Positions 5,025 to 41,955 of a stretch of DNA of 64,000 nucleotides are shown here, in pieces. Origin of the DNA: Kiloniella litopenaei (GTDB lineage: Bacteria; Pseudomonadota; Alphaproteobacteria; Kiloniellales; Kiloniellaceae). Position numbers and translations under genes: made by a program. The stretch covers positions 124,001 through 188,000 of the forward strand of contig NZ_LANI01000003.1 of NCBI RefSeq assembly GCF_000982415.1. The letters are read 5' to 3'. Each line of letters opens with the position of its first letter. Position 1 is the first letter of the stretch. Below the pieces are notes generated by a model, which worked only from the letters and a program-made list of their open reading frames with translations, ran no database searches and was not told where the DNA came from.

Positions 5025-5044
<20 letters not shown>
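4397..5044 (+). CDS. rnhB: Ribonuclease HII
   Basis: Cytoplasmic endonuclease that removes ribonucleotides embedded in DNA and cleaves RNA in RNA:DNA hybrids. The N-terminal signature VGLDEVGRGPWAGPVVAGA carries the catalytic Asp25-Glu26 pair; a further conserved Asp is in ILVDGNKIPKL and the typical SIAAASVIAKVNRD segment follows. The length of 215 residues is normal. The gene lies just before ccrM, and its last codons already contain the first GANTC site of the cluster that fills the gap between the two genes. The rnhB-ccrM neighbourhood is common in alphaproteobacteria. Confidence 0.96.
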
Positions 5045-6215
<1,171 letters not shown>

Positions 6216-16375: not shown

Positions 16376-16504
16376 TAAGTTTCTCCAAATTACAAAGGGC
16401 AGAGAAAAATTGCTCTTGAGCCCCAACAGAGTATGGGAAATATATCAAAAGAATGACCTTATGTTACCTACATTCAATGTATCAGCAATAGACATCTTGA
16501 TTAT

Positions 16505-16545
16505 TATAAAATAAAAAAAGGAGTTCGTGTTTACACACGAACTCC
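16505..16545 (-). terminator. Rho-independent terminator of the gcv transcript
   Basis: Read on the minus strand, a perfect 11-bp stem GGAGTTCGTGT/ACACGAACTCC (16535-16545 with 16520-16530) with a four-base loop runs straight into seven T residues. It ends both the gcvT-gcvH-gcvP transcript and the structured RNA region before it. Confidence 0.9.
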
Positions 16546-16694
16546 AGTCCCAGCAATGGACGGGAACAGGGTGCGGCCCTATCCCAAGTATGTCAGGCCG
16601 TCCCTTGCCTAACATACACGCCCTATGAGGACGGAGAGATCAGATTTAACGAGACACCCAGCAATGGTCCCATCTGGTCTCTCCGCTATAGCGG
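16512..16694 (-). ncRNA. Structured 3'-UTR or small RNA downstream of gcvP (unclassified)
   Basis: About 180 bases between the gcvP stop and the terminator fold, on the minus strand, into a chain of hairpins. In order: the palindrome CCGCTATAGCGG (16683-16694); a 13-bp stem with one mismatch (16672-16684 with 16633-16645) that encloses a smaller hairpin; an 11-bp stem (16607-16617 with 16588-16598); an 8-bp GGGA/AGGG stem with a bulge (16562-16585); a short hairpin; and the terminator. Two separate hairpins expose the same seven-base loop ATTGCTG closed by CC/GG (loops at 16659-16665 and 16551-16557). No reading frame explains it. I cannot match it to a known RNA family from memory. Confidence 0.6.
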
Positions 16695-16695
16695 C

Positions 16696-19584
16696 CTATT
16701 CAGCCGCATCCCGATAGCTCTCGATTGAAGGGCAAGAGCAAACTAGATTACGATCACCATAAACGTTGTCCACACGTCCAACAGGCGCCCAGTATTTTCC
16801 GTCACGCAAACTTTCTACCGGATAGGCTGCTTCTTCGCGTGTATAGGGGTGATCCCAGTTTTCAGACAACATAGATGCAGCAGTATGCGGTGCATTACAA
16901 AGCATGTTGTCTTCAAGTGGTAATTCACCAGAAGCTACGCGGCCAATTTCTTTACGGATAGAAATCATTGCATCTGCAAGGCGATCAATCTCGTACTTGG
17001 ACTCTGATTCAGTTGGCTCAATCATCAATGTACCAGGTACAGGGAAAGACATTGTCGGGGCATGGAAACCATAATCGATCAAACGCTTGGCGATATCATC
17101 AACTGTAATACCGATGTCGTCTTTAAGTGGGCGAACATCAATAATACATTCATGAGCAACCATCCCGTTCTTGGATGTGTAAAGAACCGGATAGTGATCA
17201 GAAAGACGTTTAGCCAGATAGTTCGCATTCAAGATCGCCATCTGTGTTGCCTTTTTCAGACCAGAGGCCCCCATCAGCTTTAGATAGGTCCATGTGATCG
17301 GAAGAATGCTTGCAGATCCCCAAGGTGCAGAAGTAACAGCACCCTGCCCTGTCTCTGGGCCAGCTTCAGCAACCAGAGAATGATTCGGCAAGAAAGGCGC
17401 CAGGTGTTTACCAACACCGATCGGGCCAACACCCGGTCCCCCACCACCGTGTGGAATGCAGAATGTTTTATGCAGGTTAAGGTGCGAAACATCACCACCG
17501 AACTTACCCGGCTTAGCCAGTCCAACCATAGCATTCATGTTGGCGCCATCGACATAAACCTGTCCGCCAAAGTCATGAACAATGCCACATGTTTTACGAA
17601 CCTCTTCCTCAAACACACCATGTGTTGAAGGATAGGTAATCATGATCGCCGCCAGATTTTCCTGGTGCTTTTCAGCCTTGGCATAGAGATCGTCGTTATC
17701 GATGTAACCTTCGTCATCGCAGTTAACAACGACAACTTTCATGCCTGCCAGGGCAGCGGATGCAGGGTTTGTTCCGTGTGCAGATGCCGGAATCAGACAG
17801 ATATCGCGCTGCGTATCGCCCCGGCTTTCGTGGTACTTGCGAATAGCAAGCAGACCCGCATATTCCCCCTGAGAACCAGAGTTCGGCTGTAGCGACACGG
17901 CGTCGTATCCGGTAACTTCAACCAGCATATCTTCCAGATCTTTGATCAGCTCAAGATAGCCTTCGGCCTGATCAAGAGGAACGAATGGATGAATTTCACC
18001 AAATTCAGGCCATGTAACCGGAATCATCTCTGTGGCAGCATTCAGCTTCATGGTGCAAGAACCCAATGGAATCATTGCACGATCAAGCCCGATATCCTTG
18101 TCACAGAGCTTGCGCAGATAGCGCATCATTTCTGTTTCAGAATGATAACTATTGAATGTAGGATGCGTCAGGAAGTCTGTACGACGAACCGTAGCAGCAG
18201 GAATACTGCTCTCAACTGAATCATCCAGTGCATCAACAGATTGCCCTGAAACGCCGAAGACGCTCCAAAGAGTTTCAACATCACCACGGGTTGTTGTCTC
18301 ATCGATGGAAATACCAAGAGTATCCCCATCAACAACACGAAGGTTCATTTTGTGATCACGAGCTTTAGCGGCGATATCGTTGGCTTTACCAGCAACAGAA
18401 AGTGTCAGAGTGTCAAAGAAGCTGTCATACACAACTTCCACACCACCGGCTTTTAGACCAGCAGCCAGGATAGAGGCCAGACGGTTCACACGACGTGCGA
18501 TCGTCTTCAGGCCTTCAGGACCGTGATAGGTCGCATAGAAGCCAGCCATATTCGCGAGCAACGCCTGTGCTGTACAGATGTTACTGGTCGCTTTTTCACG
18601 GCGGATATGCTGTTCCCGGGTTTGAAGCGCCATGCGAAGAGCTGGCTCGCCATGAGAATCAACAGACATTCCAACAAGACGCGCAGGAATAGAGCGCTTG
18701 AATTTATCATGTGTCGCAAAGTAACCAGCGTGTGGTCCACCAAAACCCATTGGGACACCAAAACGTTGTGCGGAACCAATCGCAAAGTCAGCACCAAGTT
18801 CACCCGGGCTTTTGATAAGTGTTAGCGCAAGGATATCAGCAGCAATGCCGGCAAGACCTTTGTTTTCCTGAACCGCCGCGATCAAATCGCTGTAATCTTC
18901 GATACGACCGGAAGTTCCGGGATACTGGAACAGCGCACCATAAACAGCTGTAGGATCCAGATCTTTGCGCGGATCACCGATAACGACTTCGTAACCCAGA
19001 GCTTCTGCGCGTGTTTTGATAACCGAGATACTTTGAGGCAAGAGATCCTGATCAACAAAGAAAGCCTCTGCTTTACTTTTTGCAACACGACGACAGAACG
19101 TCATGGCTTCAGCAGCGGCAGTACCTTCGTCAAGCATAGAGGAATTCGCCAGTTCCATACCTGTAAGATCACTGATCATTGTCTGATAGTTCAGGATCGC
19201 TTCCAAGCGCCCCTGAGAAATCTCTGCCTGATACGGCGTATAAGATGTATACCAGCCCGGATTTTCCAGAACGTTTCTCAGGATAACTTTAGGAACGTGT
19301 GTTCCATAGTACCCCATACCAATGAAGGATTTGAACACCTTATTTTTGGATGCGAGTGACTTGGCATGAGCAAGAACATCAACTTCTGTCTGACTCTCAG
19401 CCATAGCAAGCGGGGCAGTCTCACGAATTGCTTCCGGCACTGTTTTATCGGAAAGCTCTTCCAAAGAACCAAGACCCAAAAGCGCAAGCATTTCCGTTTG
19501 CTCAGCATCATTAGGCCCGATATGACGGCGAACAAAATCAGTTTTTTGTTCTAGGTCTTTTAGAGACACATTTGTATCAGACAT
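16696..19584 (-). CDS. gcvP: Glycine dehydrogenase (decarboxylating), P protein
   Basis: PLP enzyme of the glycine cleavage system: it decarboxylates glycine and passes the aminomethyl group to lipoyl-GcvH. It is the single-chain form (962 residues) with N- and C-terminal halves fused, not the split GcvPA/GcvPB form. The PLP lysine is Lys706 in [23 protein letters not shown] 19584 ([13 protein letters not shown]) is preferred, with AAGGA upstream; the frame is open to 19641 but that extension is in the gcvH-gcvP spacer. It is last in the gcvT-gcvH-gcvP operon. Confidence 0.97.
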
Positions 19585-19710
19585 GGCGAATTCCTTAATT
19601 AGTAAACCAATGCACAGCTTCCTTGCAGAAGCTGGCATCAATCAAACGTACTTAGCTGAGATTACAAATACTCAGATTTTCCCAACACCCAAAATCAACG
19701 ATTAGAGGTA

Positions 19711-21333: not shown

Positions 21334-21358
21334 AAAACACAACGGCAACGAGCCATTG
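21334..21358 (-). promoter_or_regulatory. Candidate expression-platform hairpin of the gcv riboswitch
   Basis: On the minus strand CAATGGC-TCGTT-GCCGTTG (21358-21340) forms a seven-base-pair hairpin with one G-T pair, followed by TGTTTT, lying between the second glycine aptamer and the gcvT ribosome binding site. It looks like a weak terminator that glycine binding could control. This is inference from position and shape. Confidence 0.4.
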
Positions 21359-21361
21359 CAT

Positions 21362-21561
21362 CCCCCTCTGTCTTCGAACCTGAGAGATTCACAAAAGATG
21401 TTTATCACCTTTTGCTTACTCCGTCGGTGTCTCGCAGTACGCAAAACTTTCCAGAGTTGCCTGCCTCTTGCGGTCCATGTGCCTGAGAGTTTCCGGGGCG
21501 GTTGCTCCTTCGGCGCTGCCCGTATTGTTTCGCTTAAGAAACTTTACGGCAATCTCTCCCG
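21362..21561 (-). promoter_or_regulatory. Tandem glycine riboswitch
   Basis: The minus-strand leader of gcvT has both glycine aptamers in tandem. Aptamer 1 shows GGAGAG at about 21560, the core GCCGAAGGAGCAACCGCC and CTCTCAGGCACATGGACCG. Aptamer 2 shows a second ACCGACGGAGTAAGC core and AATCTCTCAGGTTCGAAGAC, then AGAGGGGG. The match to the known consensus and the location before gcvT-gcvH-gcvP make this firm. Expected behaviour is glycine-activated expression of the cleavage operon. Confidence 0.95.
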
Positions 21562-21894
21562 CGAGAGGTATTCCAGCAATAGTCAAATTGTCTTGCAACA
21601 ACCTAACTTAGCTAGAGATTTACCCTCTTCTGAAAAAAAGTCAACCACAGACGACACAAATTCCAGCGAACACGACAAATAACCAGCAATAACAAATAGT
21701 TATTTCCTAAAGGAAATTTTTAACCCTCAGATTCACAAGAGGACACTATCAGAAACGCAACCGATTTAACGATAACGACCCCAATAGTCCCCCACGACAT
21801 TAGCCGCATCTGTTTTTATCGCATGACTTTACGCATAAGGATTTGATGGACTTTGGAATCGAATAAAGCTGAAAGCCTTTTGATCTGAAATCGC
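21562..21894. other. Gene-free spacer between the gcv leader and the lipoprotein gene
   Basis: Holds the upstream side of the riboswitch leader, where the gcv promoter must lie; a TTGACT-like element on the minus strand near 21640 has no convincing -10 partner. I see no reading frame with coding character and no strong hairpin in the rest. Confidence 0.5.
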
Positions 21895-40790: not shown

Positions 40791-41624
40791 TCAGTTAAGC
40801 TGAGCAACCTGTACGGAACGATCGTCTTCAATCGCGGCAAACTCTTCTTTGGCGAAATCGACCCACTTGTCGAATTCTTCCTTGGAAACAGCTTTGATCA
40901 TGATCGGCATATAGGAATGACCTGTACCACAAATCTCAGAGCACTGACCGTAGTATGTGCCTTCGGCATTTACTTCGAACCATGTCTCGTTGATACGACC
41001 CGGCACACCATCAAGCTTTAGTCCCATGGATGGCATAGCGAATGAATGGATCACATCATCTGCAGTTACCAAAAGACGAACTTTGGTATTTACAGGAACA
41101 ACAATCGCATTATCGGTTGCCAGCAAACGTGGCTCTCCTGGCTCTAGTTCATCTTCGGCCTTCATATAGGCATCAAATGTAAAGTCGCCTTGATCTGGAT
41201 ACTCATAAGACCAATACCACTGCTTGCCGATCGCTTTAATCGTCATCTCGGTATTGGGATTGCTGTCCGCCGCGTATAGAATCTTGAACGAGGGGATCGC
41301 GATAATCACCAAAATGATTACTGGCACAGCTGTCCAGATGATCTCAAGAAGTGTGTTATGGCTTGTCTTTGATGGCACAGGGTTACGTTTCTCGGAGAAA
41401 CGGAACATCACATAAAGCAATAGAAGCAGAACGACCACACAAACTGCAGTAATGATATAAAGCAGAAGATCGTGAAATTCTTCCAATGCAACAGCTGTCG
41501 GAGAAGCGGCATCTTGCAGACCAAGACCCCATTCAACTGGCTGAGAGGCGTGACCAGTAGCAGCCAAACCGCCGAACAGTGCAACAGCACTAATTAGATA
41601 GGCAATCCGTTTCAGAAACGTCAT
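40791..41624 (-). CDS. ctaC: Cytochrome c oxidase subunit II
   Basis: Subunit that receives electrons from cytochrome c through the CuA centre. A signal peptide ends near GHA (residue 26), two membrane helices follow (about 45-70 and 95-112), and the periplasmic cupredoxin domain has the CuA ligands in the YYGQCSEICGTGHSYMPI segment plus VIHSFAMPSMG. The length of 277 is normal and no c-type heme domain is fused. It is first in the oxidase operon and its leader carries an FNR-type palindrome. Confidence 0.97.
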   Translation of the reverse strand: MTFLKRIAYLISAVALFGGLAATGHASQPVEWGLGLQDAASPTAVALEEFHDLLLYIITAVCVVVLLLLLYVMFRFSEKRNPVPSKTSHNTLLEIIWTAVPVIILVIIAIPSFKILYAADSNPNTEMTIKAIGKQWYWSYEYPDQGDFTFDAYMKAEDELEPGEPRLLATDNAIVVPVNTKVRLLVTADDVIHSFAMPSMGLKLDGVPGRINETWFEVNAEGTYYGQCSEICGTGHSYMPIMIKAVSKEEFDKWVDFAKEEFAAIEDDRSVQVAQLN

Positions 41625-41666: not shown

Positions 41667-41680
41667 TTGATCAGGATCAA
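41667..41680. promoter_or_regulatory. Perfect FNR/FixK-type box upstream of ctaC
   Basis: TTGATCAGGATCAA is an exact TTGAT-N4-ATCAA palindrome, 43 bases before the ctaC start. This is the consensus for FNR/FixK/CRP-family oxygen regulators. The position so close to the gene suggests that binding represses from within or just after the promoter. The rest of the 331-base gap (41625-41955) holds no gene I can support. Confidence 0.7.
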
Positions 41681-41955
41681 AGTATCTTTCCCGATTCCAT
41701 GACTAATATGCAGAATGGATAATACTGCCACTAGCCGGACTCCAAAGTTATTCTGGCGCAACCTACCCTATTGAAACCCGAGAGGACAAGCCCATATACA
41801 GAAGAATTGCGCATATTAGGTGCTTTAAGCTACCAAAAGATAAACACTAAGCAAACTATAGCCTTTTATGAGGGCCTAGTCCTTGGGCTGCGACCTTATG
41901 ACGCAATAGGATTTTTACCGCATAAATCTTGGCTTTCTTTATTAAATTTGCGGTC

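Follow-up and report, generated by a model that had tools for sequence, protein, structure and literature searches.

A conserved structured RNA behind gcvP, at the probable 3′ end of the gcv message in Kiloniella

The gcv operon and the element behind gcvP

The DNA analysed here, referred to as the window, is a stretch of 64,000 nucleotides from Kiloniella litopenaei. Its minus strand carries, in order, a tandem glycine riboswitch, gcvT, gcvH, gcvP, a structured RNA, a terminator and a gene for a class II glutamine amidotransferase. The gcvP gene was identified by Pfam matches to GDC-P (648.3 bits) and GcvP2_C (197.4 bits), and its frame ends at 16696, with the stop codon at 16698-16696. The riboswitch was recognised by two matches to RF00504 (66.6 and 44.9 bits). 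The features of the locus are listed below in minus-strand order.

21359-21571, minus strand: tandem glycine riboswitch upstream of gcvT-gcvH-gcvP
16696-19641, minus strand: gcvP, host gene of the structured RNA
16717-16739, minus strand: hairpin H0, within the last gcvP codons (arms GCUCUU and GAGAGC), predicted in the folds of all nine sequences
16691-16707, minus strand: stop-codon hairpin, GCGGCU-GAAUA-GGCCGC, paired in all nine sequences
16633-16684, minus strand: hairpin H1, a long interrupted stem carrying the first copy of CCATTGCTGGG at 16657-16667
16547-16632, minus strand: core, a three-way junction, from folds of isolated cores and the RNAalifold consensus
16632-16628 with 16551-16547, minus strand: outer closing stem of the core
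16623-16619 with 16562-16558, minus strand: inner closing stem of the core
16588-16617, minus strand: hairpin H2 with the invariant loop AAGGGACG (16606-16599)
16563-16585, minus strand: hairpin H3 with the invariant loop CCGCA (16576-16572)
16513-16545, minus strand: intrinsic terminator from the terminator scan, stem 16545-16520 plus T7

Before the amidotransferase gene lies a promoter-like stretch (16461-16488, minus strand; TTGCTG, 16 bases, TAACAT), which was seen by eye in the alignment and missed by the scan. It has similar letters in the other eight genomes and includes a third ATTGCTG.

Nine genomes were compared: that of the window and eight relatives of the same genus (G001-G008), namely Kiloniella sp. 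EL199 (G001), two K. laminariae (G002 and G003), K. spongiae (G004), K. majae (G007), an uncultured Kiloniella sp. (G006) and two assemblies named 'Rhodospirillales bacterium' (G005 and G008). The structured RNA lies directly behind gcvP in all nine.

The sequence-only reading had placed a multi-hairpin RNA at 16512-16694, between gcvP and its terminator. Folding bears this out: the minimum-energy fold of 16697-16505 contains five hairpins at -87.1 kcal/mol, compared with a mean of -59.8 (sd 4.4) for 200 dinucleotide shuffles, none of which was as good (z -6.18). Structured RNA is thus present over that interval, but the interval proved too short, as the conserved structure begins inside gcvP at about 16739. 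The element is real, strongly conserved and structured, and it is larger than first reported, with a different core.

The three-way junction of the core is absent from the minimum-energy fold of window interval 16697-16505. Its inner closing stem is found in the minimum-energy fold of each of the nine long sequences (16760-16505 and counterparts), and in these long folds the outer closing stem pairs with probabilities of 0.39-0.79 in five genomes and 0.05-0.08 in three others, the window lying between them at 0.24-0.32. Both stems form in every isolated 88-base core that was folded (eight sequences, six of them distinct, G004 being left out; z -2.2 to -5.1), and the RNAalifold consensus contains both. 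Judged by sequence, the GUCCU linker could pair with GGGAC in the H2 loop as a pseudoknot, and both sides are invariant.

Two hairpins with identical ATTGCTG loops had also been proposed, with the loop as a pairing seed or a protein site. The repeat behind this proposal exists and is longer than was noticed, as the 11-base CCATTGCTGGG occurs exactly twice in the structured RNA, at 16657-16667 and 16549-16559. Two matches allowing up to one mismatch are nothing unusual over 64 kb (at least two in 43 of 100 shuffles), whereas shuffling the region 2000 times produced an exact 11-base direct repeat within it just 3 times. The shared loop did not hold up. In the window fold of 16697-16505 the second copy forms a 7-base loop, but the first folds otherwise, with AUU/GGU pairing around a GCUG loop. 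In long folds the second hairpin with its 7-base loop reaches a pairing probability of 0.54 for the window and 0.14 for G006; for the remaining seven genomes it is 0.00. In all eight isolated cores folded (six distinct) the second copy lies within the long-range closing stem. Each copy is changed in some relative: both K. laminariae genomes have CCAAAAGCTGGG at the first, and G006 has CCAATGCTGGG at the second. The second ATTGCTG hairpin is therefore likely, on these predicted folds, to be confined to the window's own genome, and with variable copies, one of them in a closing stem, the proposal of the loop as a seed or protein site finds no support. There is no sign of a dispersed repeat family, as CCATTGCTGGG occurs two to four times per genome in the nine, RNA copies included, and a reversed-pattern control zero to three times.

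Conservation across Kiloniella and into the coding end

Averaged over all pairs of the nine genomes, identity reaches 90.0% in the RNA, compared with 82.7% in the final 201 bases of gcvP and 54.1% in the spacer that follows the T run. When the window is set against K. laminariae, this advantage over the gcvP end disappears (81% for the RNA, 81-82% for the gcvP end), and the spacer behind the T run falls to 37-39%. Non-coding intervals of the window were ranked by their best stretch of up to 140 bases against the syntenic K. laminariae region, with 54 of 55 open reading frames masked (the frame at 21356-21682 on the plus strand, opposite the riboswitch, was left out of the mask). The RNA interval came second of 32 (0.86) and the glycine riboswitch interval fourth (0.79).

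The other two leading intervals in this ranking belong to separate loci. The best conserved, 5045-5144 (0.91), precedes the following gene.

5145-6215, plus strand: DNA methylase gene (N6_N4_Mtase plus RAMA), CcrM-like

Just upstream of it, nine GANTC sites (seven GACTC and two GAGTC) are packed into 113 bases (5025-5137), the first two overlapping the end of the RNase HII gene; GANTC is depleted across the window, with 129 sites found and 248 expected. GANTC is the site of CcrM, and 5025-5137 has the look of a self-methylation control region. The third interval, 41667-41806 (0.80), lies upstream of a minus-strand gene (40791-41624) and contains TTGATCCTGATCAA, which resembles an FNR/FixK box.

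Absence of stem conservation in relatives would have spoken against the element; the alignment instead shows stems kept in the nine genomes, with some compensatory changes. Over the nine helices 69 pairs were named, and 99.4% of the resulting 621 cells in nine genomes hold standard pairs, with four cells unpaired. Cells changed on both sides number 12, where shuffles give 4.5 ± 1.8, and a covariation score of 0.152 stands against 0.118 ± 0.008, neither value being reached in any of 500 shuffles; in these counts the two K. laminariae genomes amount to roughly a single observation. The number of pairs changed on both sides (5) was equalled in 50 of the 500 shuffles, and that of further pair types (25) in 350.

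The two-sided changes fall in H2 (two pairs), H3 (one) and the terminator (two). Support for the closing stems, H0 and H1 consists of invariance or one-sided changes; both closing stems are free of two-sided changes, and H0 lacks covariation because all six of its pairs are invariant in the nine genomes. The sixth pair of the stop-codon hairpin is U-G in six genomes, U-A in two and C-G in one. The H1 stem is mostly kept, with one pair broken in both K. laminariae genomes, and one pair of H2 is broken in two genomes.

Loops differ in how far their letters are fixed. All 8 loop columns of H2 and all 5 of H3 are invariant, next to 15 of 22 and 12 of 18 in their stems, as is the T run of the terminator (7/7), whereas the terminator loop (3/7) and the unpaired apical columns of H1 (8/17) vary. 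Since the invariant loops are those of H2 and H3, while the terminator loop and unpaired H1 are variable, the pattern points to a sequence-specific use of the core.

The structure also extends into the coding sequence. Among 609 overlapping windows of gcvP codons, the one made up of the last 15 degenerate codons ranks first in conservation, by a small margin (mean codon identity 0.68, next best elsewhere 0.65, overall 0.51). This comparison covers 800 codons in eight genomes, G006 being left out because its gcvP is split over contigs. The fully invariant codons of this last window (-14, -13, -8, -7 and -3) all lie in the arms of two predicted hairpins; the first four fill the arms of H0, unvarying in the eight genomes, and codons of the H0 loop and the linker vary. 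Codons -23 and -21, upstream and outside the hairpins of this set, are invariant as well. With these invariant codons in hairpin arms, and no promoter-like site in the scan of the minus strand from 16468 to 18141, we infer that the gcvP end is under selection on RNA structure rather than for a promoter. This suggests that selection on RNA structure may cross the stop codon and fix synonymous codons in hairpin arms.

Known families and distribution

The earlier reading had recognised no known RNA family in the element, and database comparison agrees. No Rfam 15 family reached its gathering score at the element, either in a scan of the whole window or in permissive scans of the element and its eight relatives. 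The best Rfam score for its 3′ part was that of BjrC68 (RF02353), an sRNA of Bradyrhizobiaceae, with 21.4 bits in the window and 24.0, 22.6 and 21.8 bits in three of the eight relatives. Membership was rejected, as the highest of these, 24.0 bits, compares with a gathering score of 39, and the alignment with the window element agrees best over the terminator hairpin. 6S RNA (RF00013), which the earlier reading had set aside, gives one match per genome in all nine, elsewhere (G000:C13:66491-66647) and none at the element. Glycine riboswitch (RF00504) matches in the window lie only at 21359-21571, with none at the element at E up to 10; riboswitch and element share an operon, but the former stands at its 5′ end and the latter at its 3′ end. 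Leu_leader, Thr_leader and similar matches were sub-threshold and fell well away from the RNA, in distal flanking sequence of the loci. A small protein spanning the whole element was rejected too, as no frame on either strand is open from one end of the element to the other in all nine sequences. The suspicion of a structured RNA at the gcv mRNA 3′ end outside known families is thus supported, by its presence in nine genomes, five pairs changed on both sides, invariant loops and the lack of a gathering-level Rfam match.

Two covariance models, R1 for the whole element and R2 for the core, were searched under strict filters, with few candidates scored in any one genome (at most 45 and 73 within the order, 7 and 11 at class and phylum level); the Kiloniella genomes present in each set were recovered. 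R1 found the nine Kiloniella genomes; in the order's 52 others it hit just two places, both weak and unlike the element, and a further 383 genomes of the class gave no match at E ≤ 0.01. With R2, the 52 other order genomes yielded two weak matches, and 397 others from the phylum yielded none at E ≤ 0.01. The R1 matches, in G015 (E 0.001) and G009 (E 0.009), were rejected: they lie behind other genes and by eye do not share the arrangement. Of the R2 matches, that in G050 (E 0.009) was discarded as lying inside a 496-residue open frame, and the other is in G055 (E 0.036). In G009, which belongs to the same family, the stretch is a different hairpin-plus-terminator region (L041, 1500-1630); it holds GCAAGGGACGGC, identical in letters to the region of the invariant H2 loop, but here what looks by eye like part of a stem.

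An exact-pattern scan of a collection of 84,980 species, which misses relatives differing in the pattern, returned nine stretches, eight in Kiloniella-type genomes and one in a Bacillota assembly; the last is, to judge by its sequence alone, a chance match. Inspection by eye of the sequence behind gcvP in 14 genomes from four sister genera showed nothing like the element; several have a plain terminator-like hairpin there, and L056, a short locus of this set that was read from a shifted position, still shows the gcvP stop and a terminator-like hairpin. A mobile origin was rejected, as plasmids gave no match at E 1e-5 and viral contigs none to one exact pattern. By these searches, the structured RNA is specific to the genus Kiloniella among the genomes covered.

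Open-licence literature, searched through titles and the starts of abstracts, described no such RNA for gcvP, for alphaproteobacterial 3′-UTR sRNAs or for Kiloniella among the matches listed, and no match combined Kiloniella, sRNA and transcriptome. The RNA family appears new, but RNAs carried in the 3′ UTR of a message are a known kind.

Origin and possible action of the RNA

The tail of the gcv mRNA probably gives a small regulatory RNA. The specific form that we favour, to which we give about an even chance, is a Kiloniella-specific 3′-end RNA of the gcvT-gcvH-gcvP mRNA that is released and acts in trans as an Hfq-bound sRNA. The arrangement is that of a 3′-UTR-derived sRNA: the element lies downstream of the gcvP stop and shares the intrinsic terminator of the mRNA, in the same way in all nine genomes.

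Related cases are known from Rhodobacter sphaeroides. One report (PMC8625941) gives 16 predicted 3′-UTR sRNAs, with RNase E predicted for eleven 5′ ends and the 3′ ends assigned mainly to terminators and PNPase, seven being unassigned; it also states that RNase E cuts mainly in AU-rich regions. Like SorX, CcsR1-4, PcrX and UdsB-D as described there, the Kiloniella element lies in an mRNA 3′ UTR and ends at an intrinsic terminator (PMC8625941). Further points of likeness are that the sigma-70 consensus scan showed no promoter of its own and that Hfq occurs in the genus. Against those examples, the element has a three-way junction and structure that runs over the stop codon and into the coding region; the comparison is by description, with no known sequence relation, and release is putative here. 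A second point of contact is the sibling sRNAs NgncR_162/163 of Neisseria gonorrhoeae, where sRNA control meets a gcv operon controlled by a glycine riboswitch (PMC13104608). Those sRNAs act on gcv mRNAs, whereas the Kiloniella RNA would come from a gcv mRNA.

In the model that we propose, the structured RNA starts within the last gcvP codons, at about 16739, runs as far as the terminator at 16513 and would form the 3′ end of a gcvT-gcvH-gcvP mRNA. The terminator scan showed no terminator-like site between gcvT and gcvH or between gcvH and gcvP, and the gcv message is proposed to be transcribed through to this terminator. Cleavage by an endonuclease near the linker between the stop-codon hairpin and H1 would then release an sRNA of about 170-180 bases (about 16690 to 16513) that retains the terminator and a U7 tail. 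The 5′ side is densely paired, with a linker of 5-6 bases between the two hairpins, which we count against release by RNase E. The released sRNA would be bound by Hfq, which is encoded in eight of the nine genomes (the ninth, G005, is 77% complete), and would act on other RNAs or a protein via the three-way-junction core and its two invariant loops. Given the tandem glycine riboswitch of the operon, levels of the RNA would follow glycine, and a cis signal would be turned into a trans one. A duplex-energy search with four candidate seeds against 51 of the 55 syntenic window genes, run without a shuffled control, gave no convincing target.

A possible but rather unlikely alternative is that the structure works only in cis, terminating transcription and shielding the gcv mRNA from 3′-to-5′ decay, with no separate RNA; a variant of the same reading has it tune translation termination at the stop codon. 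Continuity with the coding end, enclosure of the stop codon and a very stable fold with a terminator at its end would all suit such a role. A barrier needs no fixed loop sequences, however, yet the H2 and H3 loops are invariant in every column, and nothing similar was seen by eye behind gcvP in the 14 sister-genus genomes.

It is more doubtful that the three-way-junction core is a new functional RNA module, binding a ligand or a protein, that sits at the 3′ end of a riboswitch-controlled operon and is released in trans. If this were true, a single message would begin with a glycine sensor and finish with a second RNA device.

The earlier reading had also allowed for a separate transcript, and we consider a small RNA transcribed independently from its own promoter inside the gcvP 3′ end quite unlikely. 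The synonymous conservation in the last degenerate gcvP codons could also reflect a promoter, and codons -23 and -21, invariant outside the hairpins, would fit one, but the invariant codons of the last window sit in hairpin arms, with loop and linker codons varying. A consensus scan for E. coli sigma-70-type sites found none on the minus strand of 16468-18141. The lack of a sigma-70-like site and the conserved structure running into the gcvP coding end make a separate transcript less likely.

A protein-binding RNA such as a CsrA site is very improbable, although CsrA is encoded in all nine genomes and the invariant H2 loop AAGGGACG holds an ANGGA motif in all nine sequences. Known CsrA decoys of the CsrB/RsmZ type carry many ANGGA motifs in hairpin loops, and a decoy of that type was rejected here, with one ANGGA per sequence (two in G007) and 5-8 GGA per sequence, no clear excess over dinucleotide shuffles of the window copy (4.4 ± 1.5).

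The element is of wider interest as a candidate RNA family, seen in a single genus and without a gathering-level match in Rfam 15, placed where the output of a glycine riboswitch could become a trans-acting RNA. If a discrete RNA exists, the message of a catabolic operon would be making its own small RNA under riboswitch control.
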